IMG/VR virus record: IMGVR_UViG_3300037041_000373
Span: 1-37,748 of that record
Origin: a virus
Length of the DNA: 37,748 nucleotides
Direction: 5' to 3' (one strand)
A program made the position numbers and the translations under genes. Below are positions 14,036 through 37,748 of this stretch, piece after piece; within the stretch, counting starts at the first letter, position 1, and every line of letters begins with the position of its first letter. The notes under the pieces are model-generated. The model ran no database searches and was not told the origin of the DNA. It was given only the letters and a program-made list of their open reading frames with translations.

Positions 14036-15565
14036 TCAGCTTCCCATCCAAGATGTATTGGCCGAAGTGTCTGAATACGTCCGGCGGGTGGTTGTTCGCG
14101 CATTGTACTCGCCCCGATGCGCCACGGGAAACGCAAAAGTCACCGCAATCGCGTCAGCAGCGTCCGGTGAGGCCAAACCACGCGATTTCATGTCTTTTTT
14201 CGACTCCAAAAAGATCGTTCCGCGAGAATCTGGCTTCATCATAGGCGAAATAAGGTCGCTTTTCAAGAACCGATCGTTCGGAATACTGGCCGTTTTCAGC
14301 CATTCCCGCATATCGCCCCACATTTGCGCCCTCATGTTGCCATACATAATCGGGTTTTTGGACTTGTTGCCGAAGTTCACGCCCTTGATCTTGTACCGCT
14401 GCTCCTTGAGCCTGTCCACGATGCCGGCCCCCAGCCCGCCCTCGTCGATCACCACCAAAGTCGGCTTGTATTCCTCAATCGCTTCGATCACATACCCGAC
14501 CACCGTCATGGTGTCGTCGCCCCGATGCCGGATGATCTTCACGATGTCCCGCCCTTGCCGCACGGCGATGACCGTAGCGTCAGCCCCGAACCGTGCGGGG
14601 TCCACCCCGATCACGATCGGTGCCGACTGGTCTTGGTACTTGACCCGTTTCATAGCCTCATCGACCGTATTGGCCCCGATGAACTGGTCATCGCCCGCGC
14701 TTGGGAACTGGCCGTACACCTCGACGTGCGCCTGGCTTGAGTCCGGCCCGTACTCGTCAATGATCTGCTGATAGACCGCCTTGTCCGTTCCCTCGACCGT
14801 GCGAGCGTCCACCACCTTGGTGTTCCAAAAGTCGCGTTTGCTGTTAAACGTCTCGTAGAAGTACCCCGTGTTGCGCCGAGGGTTAGAAAACGCAAACCAG
14901 AACCTGTTCGGCGTGTTCTCTGTGAAGAAACCCGCCGTCACCGCCCAGATGGCGTCGTCGATGCCGCTGGCCTCGTCGAAGATGACCAGCACGCCGTCCA
15001 TGTTGTGAACGCCCGCAAAGGCGTCAGGATTCTCAGCCGACCACAGCCGGCCTTCAACGCCCCAGTACCTGGTGCCCTTACGCAGGTCGCGCTCGACCAA
15101 CTCAGTTAGCCACTTGGCCGGCTGCAAGCTGGTGGCTGATACTTCAAACCAGTGGCTGTTCAACCCCATCGCCAGCCACTTGGTGATCTCGGCCCAAGTC
15201 ACCTTACGCAACTGCGATTCGCTGTTGGCCGACACGATGGTTGTGGAACCAATGCGCGTGGACAGCATCCAGATGACTAACCAACTGACGAGGGCCGACT
15301 TGCCGATACCCCGACCGGACGCGACCGCTTCCCGCAAGGTGTCGAAGTCGATCTTGCCGTTGTTCTGCTTGATGTGCGCTGCGATGTCTTGCAGCACCTC
15401 GCGCTGCCATTTGCGCGGCCCACTAAAGTGTTCCAGCGGCGTGCCCTTGACGCCCCACGGGAACAGCAGCATGACAAACGCTAGCGGGTTGTCCTTGATG
15501 GCCGGACTCCACAGCCGCGCCATCAACTCTTGTTCGTCTTCAGCGCTGTACTTGGTGGTTTGCAT
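14036..15565 (-). CDS. Terminase large subunit
   Basis: 509 aa. The motor domain has Walker A SGRGIGKS (83-90) and Walker B VLVIFDEAS (192-200). The RNase H-like nuclease domain has VDPARFGADA (first Asp about 322), VVIDEGGLGAG (about 371-381) and SPDAADAIAVTF near 468-478. It cuts and pumps phage DNA through the portal. Context with P22-type head genes suggests headful packaging. Its 5' end overlaps the TerS gene by 26 bases. Size is normal for the family. Confidence 0.93.
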   Translation of the reverse strand: MQTTKYSAEDEQELMARLWSPAIKDNPLAFVMLLFPWGVKGTPLEHFSGPRKWQREVLQDIAAHIKQNNGKIDFDTLREAVASGRGIGKSALVSWLVIWMLSTRIGSTTIVSANSESQLRKVTWAEITKWLAMGLNSHWFEVSATSLQPAKWLTELVERDLRKGTRYWGVEGRLWSAENPDAFAGVHNMDGVLVIFDEASGIDDAIWAVTAGFFTENTPNRFWFAFSNPRRNTGYFYETFNSKRDFWNTKVVDARTVEGTDKAVYQQIIDEYGPDSSQAHVEVYGQFPSAGDDQFIGANTVDEAMKRVKYQDQSAPIVIGVDPARFGADATVIAVRQGRDIVKIIRHRGDDTMTVVGYVIEAIEEYKPTLVVIDEGGLGAGIVDRLKEQRYKIKGVNFGNKSKNPIMYGNMRAQMWGDMREWLKTASIPNDRFLKSDLISPMMKPDSRGTIFLESKKDMKSRGLASPDAADAIAVTFAFPVAHRGEYNARTTTRRTYSDTSANTSWMGS

Positions 15566-15989
15566 TGATGTTCATGTTAAGGCTGCGCTCGGATACGTCG
15601 TGCGCTATCACGTCTATGACGCGGCGCTCGGCTTCGGCCAAGGCGGCGGTGATGCTGATGCGCTGGTCTACGTCGATGGTGATGGCCTGCTTGGCGACCC
15701 AGCCGTGAACGTGCTGCAAGATCGCCAGACTGGCTTTGGCGTCGCCTTCTCGGGCGGCGGCGTGCAGTTGCTGTGACGCCTCTAGCTCGCCGTCAGCGCG
15801 GCCTTTCATCGCCGCCATCTCTGCGATGGGGTCGAGTTGGCACAGTTGGCGGTACTCGGTAGGCAACATGCCGGCGGCCAATGCGAGGGTGTCACCCTTG
15901 AGGCCCAGCTTGGCGGCGTCGTATATGGCGTTGAGGCGCGCCTCAGTCGCTTTGACTTCGCGGGGTGCGTAAGGCAGTGAGTGAAACAT
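15540..15989 (-). CDS. Terminase small subunit
   Basis: 149 aa from the ATG at 15989, which has GGAG six bases upstream; a GTG at 16004 is less likely. LKGDTLALAAGMLPTEYRQLCQLDP (about residues 30-55) forms a helix-turn-helix, followed by helices (LEASQQLHAAAREGDAKASLAILQH) and VHGWVAKQ, a pattern common in environmental phage small terminases. It recognises the packaging start site and recruits TerL. First gene of the late operon, directly next to the control region. Confidence 0.8.
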   Translation of the reverse strand: MFHSLPYAPREVKATEARLNAIYDAAKLGLKGDTLALAAGMLPTEYRQLCQLDPIAEMAAMKGRADGELEASQQLHAAAREGDAKASLAILQHVHGWVAKQAITIDVDQRISITAALAEAERRVIDVIAHDVSERSLNMNINANHQVQR

Positions 15990-16020
15990 GGATTCTCCAG
16001 CCACGGTGTCGTGTGCTTTG

Positions 16021-16060
16021 AGTATATGCGTTTTGCCTGTAACAAGTTGCTTTACAAGTT
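16021..16060 (-). promoter_or_regulatory. Candidate late promoter with paired upstream sites
   Basis: On the minus strand, TATACT (16026-16021) is a good -10 placed about 32 bases before the TerS ATG. No -35 consensus is present. Instead two copies of ACAAGTT (plus-strand 16042-16048 and 16054-16060, 12 bp apart) cover the -35 area. This layout would suit a promoter that needs an activator. Inferred from sequence only. Confidence 0.45.
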
Positions 16061-16118
16061 TGCATTAAAAAAAATTTTGTTTGCAGCCCCTTCGTAGCCG
16101 CGACCCCTTGGCTGCCGG

Positions 16119-16135
16119 CCCTACCCGGGGTAGGG
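16119..16135. promoter_or_regulatory. 17-bp palindrome, operator-like
   Basis: CCCTACCC, central G, GGGTAGGG: perfect 8-bp inverted repeat. It could bind a dimeric regulator. It is not followed by a T run on either strand, so it is not a terminator. Confidence 0.5.
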
Positions 16136-16193
16136 TTATTACATGCATATATAAGCATGCAGGCATGTATTTAGGCGGCCAGGCGGCCAGGCA

Positions 16194-16597
16194 TTGGGTC
16201 AATTGGGTCAATTGGGTTGACCTAAACATGTCGCCGGCCTGCATCATTGGGTCAGTTGGGTCAGGCTCGAGCCGTTGACCTATTTGACCCATAGGCACCA
16301 GGCGCGCGCGCATGCATTGGGTCAGTTAGGTCATAGGCTAGCGGTTGACCCAATTGACCCATTTGACGTGGTGGCGCGGCTATGGGGCGCGGCGGGTTAT
16401 GGGTCAAATAGGTCAAATTGTCACGCCGGAAAAATTGGCCGGCTATAACACTGTATACACGTATTGTATACACTTTTACTTTTTAAACTTATATCTAAAC
16501 CATGACCCAATTGACCCAAAAACCTAGATTCCCCTATAGCCGCGCATAGGTCAATCACGCCAAATCACGCGCCCAACTAATCGCCCAATTGACCCAA
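16194..16597. repeat. Array of about 18 copies of a 9-bp repeat (TTGGGTCAA / TTGACCCAA)
   Basis: Forward (F) copies start at 16194, 16203, 16247, 16256, 16317, 16326, 16399, 16408 and 16546; 16212 is degenerate. Reverse (R) copies start at 16217, 16275, 16284, 16345, 16354, 16502, 16511 and 16589; 16363 is degenerate. Most come as tandem pairs at exactly 9-bp period. Two units share the layout FF, 10-bp spacer, RR (16247-16292 and 16317-16362), offset by exactly 70 bp. Both spacers are centred on a small palindrome (GCTCGAGC, GCTAGC). Likely binding sites for a phage protein. Confidence 0.85.
16452..16473. repeat. Direct repeat pair TGTATACAC in AT-rich stretch
   Basis: Two exact copies of TGTATACAC (16452-16460 and 16465-16473), 13 bp start to start, each containing the palindrome GTATAC. 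They sit in the AT-rich part of the control region, about 160 bp upstream of the early promoter. Operator or unwinding-element role is possible. Confidence 0.5.
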
Positions 16598-16632
16598 AAA
16601 CATCTAAGGGTAAACACCTAGTAAAATAATGC

Positions 16633-16660
16633 TTGACAACGTAAATAAATCCCTTACAAT
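16633..16660 (+). promoter_or_regulatory. Early promoter, sigma70-like
   Basis: TTGACA (16633-16638, perfect -35), 16-bp spacer, TACAAT (16655-16660, 5 of 6). Transcription would begin near 16667, at the foot of a small TTGC-TTCG-GCAA hairpin (16666-16677), 44 bases before the first early ATG. It should work with unmodified host RNA polymerase, as expected for first-expressed phage genes. Confidence 0.8.
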
Positions 16661-16710
16661 CTAGATTGCTTCGGCAACGGGGCAAACAACCAACCAAAGG
16701 GACCCACAAA

Positions 16711-16869
16711 ATGTACGCTTCAATCTTCAATGCATTAGGCAAGCGCTTCACTCTCATCATGCATAGCGCGCCATGCATCACCAGCGAAGTGATGCAACTC
16801 ACGTTCACCAGCAAAGCCGAAGCAAAAGCCGAAGCCAAAAAACGCGGCCTGAAAGCTTGGAACTACTAA
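16711..16869 (+). CDS. First early gene, 52-aa protein of unknown function
   Basis: Start ATG at 16711 follows CCAAAGGGACCCACAAA; an in-frame upstream Met at 16666 would lie at the transcription start and is rejected. The protein is basic, with a C-terminal alanine/lysine/glutamate helix (KAEAKAEAKKRGLKAWNY). Being first after the strong early promoter, it may act in host takeover. No family recognised. Confidence 0.65.
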   Translation: MYASIFNALGKRFTLIMHSAPCITSEVMQLTFTSKAEAKAEAKKRGLKAWNY

Positions 16870-19602: not shown

Positions 19603-21885
19603 CTATTTCACCCTGACAAGTCCGGACGGGGGCGATTCCTCAACCATGCGGCGCAAGTTGGACTTATTGCTATTCGCCAGGTCCGGCGCACAGAACAAAT
19701 GCTTTTTGCTTGGGTAGTCTGAGGAGGCGACGCGGCCCAGGTCAACCCAGCCGGCCTCTTTCAGGGCGTGCAATAGCGCCTGCTGGGGCACTTTAACGCC
19801 GGCCGGTGCTGACCCTGCCAGTCGGTCGCAAACAGCGTGGAACGGGCTGCCAATAACGCCTTTGGAGAACTCGCCGACTTTGAGGCGCATCGACTCGACC
19901 AGGTAAGACTCGGCCATTGACAGGCCATGCTCGATCAGGTTGAGTTTGAATTCTGTTGCCATCGGGGCCGCGCCAGGGTTAAAGGCCGAAACGTCACGGG
20001 CCTGCAACCATGCGCCGATGGCCTCAAAGCCGCCGGTCTTGTACCAGGCCCACATCTTGGCGGCGGCGTCTGGGGTCATGCGGGGGGCGTGTGACCAGAC
20101 GCAGAACCAGCGCCGATCTTGGCTGTCCAGTGTGATCGGCATAGGGTCATTGGAGAACGCCAGCACGAACACTCGGTTCACCATGTCGTATGGGTGTAAA
20201 CCCTTACGGTTGACGGACAGCATCTCAGGGGGCGCTGCGATAACGGGTTTCAGCTTGTTAGCAAGGGCGCGCCGTTCTTTGGCGTCGGGTTCTTTCAACT
20301 CATTCAGAATCAGGATCTCGGACTCAAGGGCATAGCCGAATTGGCTGCTCATGGTGTCGTTATCCAGCAGCCCTCGGTTCTTCAGGTGGGGGCCGCAGAC
20401 CGACCAGATAAAGGGTGCCCACATGGTGTCTTTGCCCGACCCTTGGTCACCACCGTGCAGGATTGCATGGTTGATCTTGACCTCGGGGTGTTGGAGCTTG
20501 TACGCCATCACGTTGAAAATGTGTTCTAACTCTTTAGACTCGGGGACTAGCGTGCGGCAGTGGTCGAGCCAGGGGGTGATGTTGCCGGCCTGCACTGGTG
20601 GGCGTGCGTTGCGCCAGCGGTTGCCGAAAATGTCGCCGTCACGGGCCACCAGCACGCTCTCGCCGGCGGCGTAGGTGATGCCGACCAGCGCCTTTGCGCC
20701 TTTAGCCTGGCGGTTCTCGTCAAAGCAAATTGACGCTTCGACCTTGCGCTGGGTGTGAATCGACTTGCAACTGATGTGCCGGAACAAAGCATTGAAGGTG
20801 TTGCGCGATACTTCGCGGCGGTCTTGCATGTCGAAGTAGGACTCGTCAACCTGTATATACGCGAAGCGCTCGTACCAGTCGGCCTTCTCAATGCGGCCCA
20901 ACTCTTTGCGCTCTGTTTCGGCCACCACAGCAGCGCCCACATCGGTGAACATATCGGTCGGGGTCAAGCGGGACAGCGCCCCCTCCATCGCTGCGGTGAA
21001 CAACTCCTCACGCAGCCCAGGCGTGTGCTTAGGGCCGCCGTTCTCGGCCACCCAGTCGAGGAACGTGCGAGAATCCAGATCAACGCAGTGGCCGTGAAGG
21101 CAGCAGTACGCCCGATTGGCAGGCATGTAGCGCCCCTCGGGGTTGCCGTCGCTATGCTCGGCACTGTTCGGGCAGATCACGCCGGCCCAGCCCTCTGGGT
21201 TCGGGTTGGACAGCAGCAGCCCTTGGCCGGACAGCCAAGCCAGCACATCATCGGCCCCGTCATCGCTGATGCGGATCGAACGCAGGGTCAGGGTGTCGGC
21301 AGCCGCTGGCGTCACGCCCAGAGCGGCGCATATCTCGGGCAGGCTGTAGTCGCGCTCGGGGTGGAACTCAGTCAGGACAGCGGCAAAGTTGTCGCGGCCA
21401 GGCTTCAAGTTAACCGAGCCAGGCAGACGGAAGTTGCGAACGGCGTTAATCGCGCCAGGGTCGGTGTAGCCGGCGTCTGCGATGGCCTTGATCGCTGCGC
21501 TGAACTCGGCCTTGGACGGCTGCTCATTGAAGGCGTAGCCCCACTGGAACGAGCCGGCGCTGGTCTCCATGATCCAAGTCGGGGGCAGGGGCGGGGTCTT
21601 GCTCTTGGTGCCGATGTCGTCCAGCATCATGACAAGAATGTATTCGCAGTTGGCGGCGCTGGCGCTGACATGGCCGTCCTTAAAGCGCTCGACGATAAAG
21701 CTGGCGGTGTTGCCGTACCACGACTCGCCGGCCTTGATCTTGTGCCCAGGCAGGAACGCCGGCCAGGTGGCCTTCACAGCCCCATCGGCGTGAAAATCCA
21801 ACGCCCCGTCTTTTAATTTAGGTTTTTGCTTGACTATCAGGGCTGTTTCGCCCTCTGGGGCCAAAGATGCTATAAACTCGATCAT
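19603..21885 (-). CDS. Primase-helicase: AEP-type primase plus SF3 helicase
   Basis: 760 aa. The N-terminal third looks like an archaeo-eukaryotic-type (RepB-like) primase: ILVMMLDDIG (about 83-92), FQWGYAF (113-119) and RNFRLPGSVNLKPG (150-163). A Cys/His cluster (CPNSAEH at 238-244, CCLHGHC at 261-267) follows. The C-terminal half is a superfamily 3 helicase: Walker A GGDQGSGKDT (478-487), Walker B ILILNELKE (524-532), sensor VFVLAFSND (572-580). It should prime and unwind at the phage origin. It is last in the minus-strand replication operon, converging on the early genes. Confidence 0.87.
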   Translation of the reverse strand: MIEFIASLAPEGETALIVKQKPKLKDGALDFHADGAVKATWPAFLPGHKIKAGESWYGNTASFIVERFKDGHVSASAANCEYILVMMLDDIGTKSKTPPLPPTWIMETSAGSFQWGYAFNEQPSKAEFSAAIKAIADAGYTDPGAINAVRNFRLPGSVNLKPGRDNFAAVLTEFHPERDYSLPEICAALGVTPAAADTLTLRSIRISDDGADDVLAWLSGQGLLLSNPNPEGWAGVICPNSAEHSDGNPEGRYMPANRAYCCLHGHCVDLDSRTFLDWVAENGGPKHTPGLREELFTAAMEGALSRLTPTDMFTDVGAAVVAETERKELGRIEKADWYERFAYIQVDESYFDMQDRREVSRNTFNALFRHISCKSIHTQRKVEASICFDENRQAKGAKALVGITYAAGESVLVARDGDIFGNRWRNARPPVQAGNITPWLDHCRTLVPESKELEHIFNVMAYKLQHPEVKINHAILHGGDQGSGKDTMWAPFIWSVCGPHLKNRGLLDNDTMSSQFGYALESEILILNELKEPDAKERRALANKLKPVIAAPPEMLSVNRKGLHPYDMVNRVFVLAFSNDPMPITLDSQDRRWFCVWSHAPRMTPDAAAKMWAWYKTGGFEAIGAWLQARDVSAFNPGAAPMATEFKLNLIEHGLSMAESYLVESMRLKVGEFSKGVIGSPFHAVCDRLAGSAPAGVKVPQQALLHALKEAGWVDLGRVASSDYPSKKHLFCAPDLANSNKSNLRRMVEESPPSGLVRVK

Positions 21886-26505: not shown

Positions 26506-27784
26506 CTATCAAGAGACAGCGGCTGACTTCCTGTACGAACACGACCGCGCCATGATCTTGGCACCCGTGGGCGCAGGCAAGACGGCCATCACGCTCACCG
26601 CCATGCAGGCCATGCTGGCTGACGGCGTGGTCGGGCGCTTCTTAGTGCTGGCCCCTAAGCGCGTCTGCACCGATGTGTGGCCGGTCGAGCAGCCGAAGTG
26701 GGCACCTGGCTGCACGCTGGCCGTGGCGGTCGGCACGCCAGCGCAGCGGGCGGCAGCGCTTGGTGGCGGCGCGCAGATCATCGTGACCAACTACGACAAC
26801 ATCCAGTGGCTGGCAACCCAGAACCTGTCGCACATCGACGGCATCGTCTACGACGAGTTGACCAAACTCAAGAACCCGTCCGGCGCTCGGTTCAAGGCGC
26901 TGAACAAGGTCATCGACAAGATCAATATCCGCTGGGGCTTGACCGGCTCGTTCACCAGCAACGGTCTTGAGGACGTGTTCGGCCAGTGCAAGATCGTTGA
27001 CCAGTCACTACTGGGCCGCAGCAAGGGCGCGTTCCAGCAGCAGTACTTCATCCTGATCAATAAAGAGTACGGCGACTGGGCACCGCGCACCGGCGCGCTG
27101 GAACAGGTGATGGAGCGCATCAAGCCGGCCACCTTTCTGCTGGAGCCTGGCGAGTACAAAGACAAGCTGCCGCCGCTGCACACGGTCGAGTTGCGCTGCG
27201 ACATGGACATGACGGACTACAACACACTCAAGAAAGAGTTCGTGCTGGAGTTCCCCGACGCCCGTGTCGTGGCGGTCAACGCGGCTGTTGTGACGCAGAA
27301 GTTGCAGCAGATGGCTAGCGGGTTCCTGTACACCGACAACGGCCCTGTCTGGTCGTCCGGCCACAAATTCGACCGGCTGGAAGATCTGTTGTCCGAAAAC
27401 CAACGGGCCAACACCATCGTCGTGTACCAGTACCAAGAAGAACTGGCAGAACTCAAGCGCCGGTTTCCGCGCGCGCAGACGCTGGATGACGCCTGTGCAA
27501 TTGAGCGCTGGAACGCCGGCCAGGTTGAGTTGTTGCTGGTGCATCCGAAGTCAGCCGGCCACGGCCTGAACTTGCAGCACGGCGGGCACCACATCGTGTT
27601 CCTGTCGCTGCCGTGGTCTTTGGAACTCTACGAGCAGACCATTGGCCGGCTGCACCGCAGCGGTCAGAAGAACGCGGTCTGGTGCTACATCCTGCTGACG
27701 CACAAGACGATTGACGGGAAGATTTGGGGCGCGCTACACGACAAGCGCGCATTGTCAGACATTGCATTGGAGGCTTTGAAATGA
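26492..27784 (+). CDS. SNF2-type superfamily 2 helicase
   Basis: 430 aa, a compact helicase. Motif I APVGAGKT (24-31), motif Ia FLVLAPKRV (50-58), motif II as YDELTK (120-125, DELT in place of DEAH), motif III region GLTGSFTSN, and motif VI QTIGRLHRSGQ (about 382-392). Phage helicases of this type sit beside VRR-NUC nucleases and may remodel replication or recombination intermediates. Its stop overlaps the next gene (ATGA). The DNA is GC-rich with even codon use, like the terminase gene. Confidence 0.9.
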   Translation: MKLRDYQETAADFLYEHDRAMILAPVGAGKTAITLTAMQAMLADGVVGRFLVLAPKRVCTDVWPVEQPKWAPGCTLAVAVGTPAQRAAALGGGAQIIVTNYDNIQWLATQNLSHIDGIVYDELTKLKNPSGARFKALNKVIDKINIRWGLTGSFTSNGLEDVFGQCKIVDQSLLGRSKGAFQQQYFILINKEYGDWAPRTGALEQVMERIKPATFLLEPGEYKDKLPPLHTVELRCDMDMTDYNTLKKEFVLEFPDARVVAVNAAVVTQKLQQMASGFLYTDNGPVWSSGHKFDRLEDLLSENQRANTIVVYQYQEELAELKRRFPRAQTLDDACAIERWNAGQVELLLVHPKSAGHGLNLQHGGHHIVFLSLPWSLELYEQTIGRLHRSGQKNAVWCYILLTHKTIDGKIWGALHDKRALSDIALEALK

Positions 27785-28499: not shown

Positions 28500-28678
28500 T
28501 TAAAGATACCCGCAAGGTCAAGCCATATCCTGCGGTTGCGCCGGATGACATCGAGCCAGTGCCGGATACGTGGCACACGGTTGGTGCGGTGATGCTGACC
28601 GCCATCATGGGGGCGCTGGCCGTGGTCTGCATCCTGATTTTCTTTACTGGCTTTTGGGTTTGGAGCTTGCTGATATGA
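28496..28678 (+). CDS. 60-aa membrane protein, copy 1 of a duplicated gene
   Basis: ATG at 28496, coupled by ATGA to both neighbours. KVKPYPAVAPDDIEPVPDTWHT precedes one transmembrane helix (GAVMLTAIMGALAVVCILIFFTG) and WVWSLLI. The last 55 codons are 93% identical in DNA to those of the gene at 29254-29511. Function unknown; small inner-membrane protein by prediction. Confidence 0.65.
   Translation: MIKDTRKVKPYPAVAPDDIEPVPDTWHTVGAVMLTAIMGALAVVCILIFFTGFWVWSLLI
28514..28678 (+). repeat. 165-bp duplication, copy 1
   Basis: Matches 29347-29511 base for base except 11 differences, with no gap. Nine of the changes are silent or in silent positions; only Val/Leu and Trp/Tyr differ in the protein. 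Confidence 0.9.
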
Positions 28679-29257: not shown

Positions 29258-29511
29258 CGCGCCGGTACTGCGACACGGGCCGCATTGACTGCCCTCACTT
29301 GCCCGAGTGCATCTGGGACTGCGCCTACGACACGGCGACTGTCAGGAAGCTCAAGCCATATCCTGCGGTTGCGCCGGATGACATTGAGCCTGTGCCGGAC
29401 ACATGGCACACGGTTGGCGCGGTGATGCTCACCGCCATCATGGGGGCGCTGGCCGTGGTCTGCATCCTGATCTTCTTTACTGGCTTTTATGTTTGGAGTT
29501 TGCTGATATGA
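29254..29511 (+). CDS. 85-aa membrane protein, copy 2 of a duplicated gene
   Basis: ATGA-coupled. Unlike copy 1 it begins with a Cys-rich head (RRYCDTGRIDCPHLPECIWDC, five cysteines), which could bind metal or form disulfides. From residue 32 it follows copy 1 almost exactly: KLKPYPAVAPDDIEPVPDTW, transmembrane helix, YVWSLLI. So a new N-terminal domain was joined to the duplicated membrane anchor. Function unknown. Confidence 0.7.
   Translation: MTRRYCDTGRIDCPHLPECIWDCAYDTATVRKLKPYPAVAPDDIEPVPDTWHTVGAVMLTAIMGALAVVCILIFFTGFYVWSLLI
29347..29511 (+). repeat. 165-bp duplication, copy 2
   Basis: Second copy of 28514-28678, 833 bp downstream, 154 of 165 bases identical. Confidence 0.9.
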
Positions 29512-37185: not shown

Positions 37186-37748
37186 CTATTGTTCAGTTTG
37201 AGTTACGGCCAAAACAACCGCAGGCGCTGCTGGCGCAAAAGCTGTAGCCGCCACAGTGGCAATGCTGACGTTGGTGCTGTTGGCAGCGTACATGACCTCA
37301 ATAAAGTCACCGGCCAGCAAAGACGCAACTTCGTTAAGCGACACCACCAGATAGCCGTTGTTCAACGTGATGGACGCGACGCGGGCTGAGTTGGGGAAGT
37401 CTGTAGTGCCATTAAGCCGCAACCAAACCCAAACAGACTTTTGTGCGGCATTGTTTGACGTAATCTGCACCGAACAGGCGATATTGTATAGCCCCGCTTG
37501 CGCGACAAACACTTGCGAAGTTGTCGTGCCAATTGACACACCGTTGGCAATTAACGTGCTGTTAAGCGTTAGCGGGTAAGCTGTGTTTGCTGCAACAGGG
37601 CTTTGGCTATTGGTCTTGGCGAACTCACCATAGTAAATTTGCTGCTCAATAGTTGGCCGGACAAAGATAACGCCAGCAGTAGCGTCAACTTGCAACACAG
37701 CGGCAATCGGCACCACGTTGTTGGGTGCTGTTGGCTTGACATTGGTAA
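37186..37748 (-). CDS. Tail fiber-like protein spanning the contig join, C-terminal part
   Basis: C-terminal part of the 408-aa protein that starts at 791. Bases 37622-37748 duplicate 1-127, so the unique part here is 37186-37621. The last 135 or so residues (SPVAANTAYPLTLNS, then VFVAQAGLYNIACSVQ, SVWVWLRLNG, LAGDFIEVMYAA) have the alternating pattern of a C1q/TNF-like jelly-roll, a common trimeric receptor-binding fold at phage fiber tips. A gene caller that ignores circularity would start it wrongly at an internal Met (37716). Fold call is by pattern only. Confidence 0.75.
   Translation of the reverse strand, partial: TNVKPTAPNNVVPIAAVLQVDATAGVIFVRPTIEQQIYYGEFAKTNSQSPVAANTAYPLTLNSTLIANGVSIGTTTSQVFVAQAGLYNIACSVQITSNNAAQKSVWVWLRLNGTTDFPNSARVASITLNNGYLVVSLNEVASLLAGDFIEVMYAANSTNVSIATVAATAFAPAAPAVVLAVTQTEQ
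37622..37748. repeat. Terminal direct repeat, right copy (assembly overlap)
   Basis: Exact copy of bases 1-127. For analysis, one copy should be dropped and the sequence treated as a circle of 37,621 bp. Confidence 0.95.

Follow-up and report, generated by a model that had tools for sequence, protein, structure and literature searches.

A patterned repeat array between TerS and a small-gene operon

The window (the whole stretch of 37,748 nucleotides analyzed here) encodes P22-like head and connector genes, a PolA-type polymerase, an exonuclease, a helicase and a primase-helicase of 760 amino acids. Its ends carry a 127-bp terminal direct repeat (1-127 and 37622-37748), and the contig is therefore a closed circle of about 37.6 kb. 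The 127-bp terminal repeat is also found in three other contigs of the group; since its length does not vary, it looks like an assembly k-mer left where the circle was closed rather than a biological repeat. The right-hand small-gene operon contains a 165-bp duplication (28514-28678 and 29347-29511, 93% identical), near which ribosome-binding-site/start segments are repeated as well.

The subject of this study is a 404-bp array (16194-16597) that lies between TerS, on the minus strand, and a rightward small-gene operon. The features of the locus and of the gene that we propose to be its partner are the following:

14036-15565, minus strand: TerL, used as the anchor for finding relatives
15540-16004, minus strand: TerS, adjoining the array; its likely true start is the ATG at 15989
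16194-16225: outermost iteron cluster on the TerS side, with forward sites at 16194 and 16203, a degenerate one at 16212 and an overlapping reverse site at 16217
16247-16292: twin unit 1, in which a 10-bp spacer separates the forward pair (16247/16256) from the reverse pair (16275/16284)
16317-16362: twin unit 2, in which a 10-bp spacer separates the forward pair (16317/16326) from the reverse pair (16345/16354)
16399-16416, plus strand: forward iteron pair 16399/16408
16431-16500: AT-rich island, a candidate duplex-unwinding element (0.78 AT at 16450-16499)
16502-16597, minus strand: outer reverse sites, consisting of the pair 16502/16511 and a single site at 16589
16633-16660, plus strand: sigma-70-like promoter (TTGACA-16-TACAAT) of the rightward small-gene operon; such sites are found as often as expected by chance
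19603-21885, minus strand: primase-helicase, 760 aa, with a DUF5906/SF3-type helicase and a weak RepB_primase-like N-terminus; proposed initiator
19636-19923, minus strand: predicted C-terminal winged-helix domain of the primase-helicase
19672-19740, minus strand: stretch of the primase-helicase that tracks the repeat class (residues 716-738), comprising the wing hairpin with residues 730 and 738 just behind it

A preliminary description of this DNA had counted about 18 copies of a 9-bp repeat in the array, arranged in head-to-tail pairs with an exact 9-bp period. Our counts agree: 13 TTGGGTCAA-like sites have at most one mismatch and 18 have at most two, and there are eight head-to-tail pairs at exactly 9 bp (16194, 16203, 16247, 16275, 16317, 16345, 16399 and 16502). 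Elsewhere in the genome we found a single further pair of this kind (5219). When the 709-bp intergenic region (16005-16713) was simulated in 2000 first-order Markov runs, the number of sites averaged 2.8 with a maximum of 11, against 18 observed, and the number of 9-bp pairs averaged 0.009 with a maximum of 1, against eight observed. Shuffles of the whole window gave 8.8 sites with at most one mismatch, against 22 observed. The two twin units are likewise as first described, offset by 70 bp and 81% alike, and the type of unit found at 16247-16292 is also kept in relatives. The central palindrome reported in their spacers is present in the window (GGCTCGAGCC; GCTAGC) but is not a feature of the family, since 39 of 51 spacers in relatives lack a palindrome of at least 4 bp. 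A search of the window for a second array found none, and a search of Rfam returned no match.

Relatives keep the layout while the repeat changes

Searches with TerL and the primase yielded 240 loci from viral contigs, about 160 of which were usable with both genes. In most of these 160 or so contigs, de novo word counting revealed an array with a 9-bp period on the upstream side of TerS. The words that make up the arrays are TGACCCAAA (the window type), TTGTCCACA, TTGCCCACA, TAGCCAACA, TTGCCTACA, GCCGACA and ACYCACA, the last with a period of 10 bp; the motifs among which the bases vary include TTGACCCAA, TTGTCCACA, GCCAACA, GCCTACA and GCCGACA. The array had been suggested to bind a protein, in which case related contigs should preserve its layout beside the terminase genes while its bases vary, and this is what most of the 160 or so contigs display.

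Spacing is strongly conserved. Sites on the same strand lie 9 bp apart in 203 cases in the GACCCAA class and in 184 cases in the GTCCACA class, far above every other spacing. The spacer of inverted pairs, which usually contains an A- or T-tract, measures 9-10 bp in the GACCCAA class and 11-12 bp in the GTCCACA class. Once TGACCCAAA is aligned in register with TTGTCCACA, the spacers become equal in length, and the binding geometry is therefore probably common to both classes. In 66 of 81 genomes, the 50-mer with the highest AT content (median 80% AT) falls within the array, where chance would place it in 21%. The core of the AT island (about 16432-16478) is 92% identical in the relative L247, a genome with iterons of another class.

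An exact-pattern scan of viral contigs gave 103 stretches, with one match apiece among those listed, and was uninformative. Our literature search for the 9-mer retrieved only unrelated primers and sequences. In a bacterial MAG contig with a related primase (L397), no array of the listed words was found downstream. A 454-bp stretch common to L285 and L287 was set aside as being largely TerS.

The same region of some relatives carries further repeats. SOS (LexA)-box-like palindromes of the form CTGT-N8-ACAG, some of them perfect (CTGTATATATATACAG), occur in the array region of 21 of 160 genomes, among them L011, L016, L018, L020, L079, L085 and L304, while the window has none in its array region; there are 21 in 144 kb of array regions compared to 9 in 1.66 Mb elsewhere. 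A second word, AAGTTAGTG/CACTAACTT, forms an array of its own, in alternating orientation, upstream of TerS in a subset of relatives (L021, L025, L026, L029, L038, L041, L043, L046 and L054). Repeated TGACCCAC / CTGACCCACTGGGTCAG sites are found upstream of TerS in phage DSL-LC05 (OR003940; L192:3597-4127).

The repeat class follows the wing of the primase-helicase

We looked for the protein that reads the sites through co-variation, mainly in 69 genomes that belong to the two most frequent classes (36 GACCCAA and 33 GTCCACA). Seven residues of the primase-helicase (716, 719, 720, 722, 725, 730 and 738) predict the repeat class at 0.99-1.00 in these genomes, and the same columns do so at 0.98-1.00 in a set of 65 genomes. 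No primase column outside these seven predicts the class in the 69 genomes, and the variable wing neighbors 724, 731, 735 and 736 do not track it.

The terminase offered another candidate. The array could be a packaging-initiation (pac or cos) site bound by TerS, whose gene starts beside it, and such sites often contain repeats. However, in six groups of genomes the first 60 residues of TerS are identical while the repeat class differs. None of the 168 TerS columns tracks the class (the best reaches 0.73), and none of the 527 TerL columns does so either. With identical DNA-binding N-termini beside different classes and no tracking column, TerS was rejected as the reader of the array, and we regard a packaging site as highly improbable.

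A wider comparison covered 28 protein families in 21 longer genomes, every family having members in three or more genomes of either class. The primase alone is present in 21 of 21 genomes with separating columns that cluster at the wing. Two structural families, found in 13-14 of the 21 genomes, have six and two separating columns that are scattered, and one 138-aa family has a single one. A 70-aa protein encoded beside the 3' end of the primase gene has nine class-separating columns and occurs in 12 of the 21 genomes; because the window and eight other genomes lack it, we read it as a linked passenger.

One repeat class resembles a host signal: TTGTCCACA is a single base away from TTATCCACA, the DnaA box of E. 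coli. That the family carries arrays of host DnaA boxes is nevertheless barely credible. TGACCCAAA, GCCAACA and GCCTACA, the commonest of the remaining classes, do not match DnaA boxes. Phages as close as L011 and L247, whose primase residues 1-640 are 98% identical, differ in class, and the residues that track the class belong to a phage protein. DnaA domain IV (Bac_DnaA_C) is absent from 49 of 50 records, and a protein with this domain was accordingly rejected as a reader. It had first been seen in MW202483 (L193:7083-7379) as a stand-alone DnaA domain IV protein (Bac_DnaA_C, E 1e-17); in that genome the corresponding gap contains repeated TGTTTACGTAAACA palindromes in place of the 9-bp array.

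The primase-helicase was among the binders suggested in the preliminary description, and the co-variation of its wing points to it. This co-variation is strong, though indirect, evidence that the primase-helicase binds the array directly through its C-terminal wing, and it places the identity of the reader on firmer ground than origin activity.

Wing and array are exchanged together

Class switches were counted on a tree of primase residues 1-640, from which the C-terminal domain was left out. This tree requires six class changes, four of which are forced by well-supported branches, and a TerL tree requires 17. By this count, the repeat class has switched at least four supported times, each time with the wing. 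Residue K720 goes with the class in all independent pairs (4/4 and 6/6; sign test p 0.031 for 6/6). L011 and L247 have near-identical TerS as well, and differ in wing, small genes and array; judging from such genomes, the exchanged block runs from the tip of the primase to the end of the array.

Since the wing, the small genes and the array lie in one exchanged block, part of the association could be linkage. Another protein of the block might even read the array while the wing of the primase hitchhikes, an idea that draws on the joint movement of wing, small genes and array and on the nine class-separating columns of the 70-aa protein. We consider this very unlikely, given the patchy presence of the 70-aa protein and its absence from the window. 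The small-gene families of the block fare no better: none tracks the class, and with a best column of 0.83 they were rejected as readers.

Three observations favor function over linkage alone. First, the window and L247/L250 differ in both wing and array despite small genes that are 75-78% identical at the DNA level. Second, pairs of genomes of the same class often have none or almost none of these genes in common, 557 of 1158 within-class pairs having at most two small-gene matches. Third, only alternating residues in the wing and directly next to it carry the signal, interspersed with adjacent residues that do not track the class.

Wing strings and repeat motifs

The amino-acid string of the wing can be matched to the repeat motif. 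ASREYQ goes with GCCAACA in 20 of 24 cases, ASRAHS with GCCTACA in 6 of 6, SSREFQ with GCCGACA in 4 of 4, KSR[DE]xD with G[TC]CCACA and AS[SGA]D[YFC][PQ] with GACCCAA, where each of the smaller classes may be a single event. The string KSRDYD is found beside GTCCACA as well as GCCCACA. A one-to-one code also fails in an ASREYQ subclade ending in K[ST]NKSDLR, which has sparse, weak and mixed arrays; these genomes (L327, L328, L331, L332, L334, L340, L344 and L346) use the words ACCCACA, GCCCACA and GCCTACA. Exceptions to the code could reflect determinants outside the wing or the decay of those arrays.

We tentatively put forward a broader reading, at slightly less than even odds. The phages studied here may form a large natural family of origins whose iterons are read by the wing of the primase-helicase and not by its recognition helix, with a readable amino-acid-to-base code. 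The tip of the primase and the origin would be swapped as a replication-identity module, perhaps escaping interference from co-infecting relatives. In this reading, the variable base of GCC-N-ACA would be C with K..R..D, A with A.R.YQ, T with A.R.HS and G with S.R.FQ.

Predicted structure of the primase-helicase

An AF2 model of the C-terminal region, built with 38 homologs, predicts a winged helix at residues about 655-750, with a core pLDDT of mostly 83-94. The modeled order is helix, strand, helix, helix, two-stranded wing (about 719-728) and helix. According to this model, the tracking residues sit in or just behind the wing hairpin, outside the nearly invariant presumed recognition helix. 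VIA-align comparison of the model with winged-helix domains gave moderate scores (Z 4-6, up to 6.2), a support at the level of the fold. Foldseek found no match in the PDB at E below 0.001, and a profile search for solved homologs of the C-terminal domain found none. Modeling the full-length primase from a single sequence gave nothing usable (pLDDT 34). In the rest of the protein, the DUF5906 helicase match is above cut-off, the RepB_primase match is below it (21.6 vs 24.3 bits) and there is no TOPRIM match.

A proposed iteron origin and its putative initiator

We propose, with a probability of about 0.84, that the array is the iteron replication origin of this podovirus family and that the phage encodes the initiator itself: the primase-helicase would bind the 9-bp sites through its C-terminal winged-helix domain, with the wing setting sequence specificity. 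Two hallmarks of an iteron origin, multiple short direct repeats and an adjoining AT-rich region, are found at the locus. We infer origin activity from the nature of the proposed binder, a replicative primase-helicase, together with the iterons, the AT island and the likeness to the crr region of satellite phage P4. GC skew, the check first suggested for an origin here, is uninformative: in 16 long genomes no consistent extreme falls at the array, and the amplitude is under 1.2%.

Under this proposal, the head-to-tail pairs, mirrored around a 10-12 bp A-tract spacer, would seat several initiator molecules. Next, the helicase rings of the initiator would open the AT-rich island within the array, after which its primase portion would presumably prime DNA synthesis by the polymerase that the phage encodes.

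The array might instead be an operator or switch through which the primase-helicase or another regulator controls divergent promoters, or an accessory cis region like P4 crr. Its position between divergent operons, the SOS-box-like palindromes that some relatives have in this region and the promoter-like site at 16633 point to the former, and the separation of ori and crr in P4 to the latter. We judge this alternative unlikely: the number and spacing of the sites, the AT island and a replicative helicase as binder suit an origin better, and the window has one array, compared with two sites in P4. The origin may additionally help to control the divergent promoters. Among the three roles initially suggested for the array, the origin is the best supported, the TerS packaging site conflicts with the identical TerS N-termini found beside different classes, and the operator may be a secondary role.

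Comparison with known replication systems

No described phage element was initially thought to have this layout, but P4 crr does. Its type 1 repeats start 9 bp apart (4314/4323 and 4494/4503) and are followed by inverted copies, and its units are two 120-bp direct repeats next to AT-rich tracts. The window similarly has 9-bp-spaced repeats in inverted, duplicated units. The P4 alpha protein combines a TOPRIM-type primase, a helicase and a C-terminal winged helix that binds the origin repeats (PMC4234260). The primase-helicase of the window resembles it in its SF3-type helicase and predicted C-terminal winged helix, but its only primase match is the sub-threshold one to RepB_primase. The systems also differ in that P4 repeats are GGTGAACA-like, and that the window has a single array beside TerS and its own DNA polymerase, in a family with many natural iteron classes. 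An hhalign comparison of the C-terminal domain with the origin-binding domain of P4 alpha gave a probability of 0.1%, with no detectable sequence similarity. By analogy, the window system would work like P4 crr/alpha.

The helicase region is related to the structures of NrS-1 (PDB 6k9c/6k9e, E 2.8e-6), and the best viral fold match of the modeled C-terminal region is annotated as NrS-1 polymerase-like. Unlike the window with its iteron array, phage NrS-1 is reported to have only two copies of an 8-nt recognition sequence, and its description mentions no winged helix (PMC7102993).

The replication proteins of pRN1 and of Bordetella phage BPP-1 contain an archaeo-eukaryotic primase, an SF3 helicase and a winged helix, in a domain order similar to that of the window protein. 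BPP-1 also has its primase gene, an intergenic gap and TerS/TerL in the same order as the window. An hhalign comparison of the C-terminal domain with the BPP-1 primase gave no match. Initiators with these three domains have been proposed to assemble at a stem-loop, the iterons not being the origin, and the origin proposed for BPP-1 is a stem-loop at the 3' end of the primase gene (PMC4234260). In contrast to this proposal, the iterons of the window family co-vary with the winged helix. In the AT-rich gap between the TerS side and the primase of BPP-1, TTGCCTCGT occurs twice head to tail at 9 bp (L400:4608-4711; NC_005357 about 26607-26710), with an inverted TTGCCTCGT pair about 80 bp away, in a window-like layout. 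Given these two pairs, the proposed stem-loop origin of BPP-1 may deserve a second look.

A parallel is found in geminiviruses: according to PMC12548392, related viruses have different iterons, each suited to its own initiator, Rep. Rep is, however, an unrelated initiator that acts at the rolling-circle origin of single-stranded DNA viruses.

Implications

From sequence alone, our analysis gives a repeat array a proposed function and a probable reader protein, in a large and uncultured group of podoviruses known almost entirely from metagenomes. It suggests that iterons can serve initiators with a primase, an SF3 helicase and a winged helix, for which a stem-loop had been put forward. These phages provide a natural set of at least six paired initiator/origin specificities, whose switches narrow the code down to some seven residues. 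This brings the specificity of winged helices, and the incompatibility of origins when phages co-infect, within reach of direct tests.
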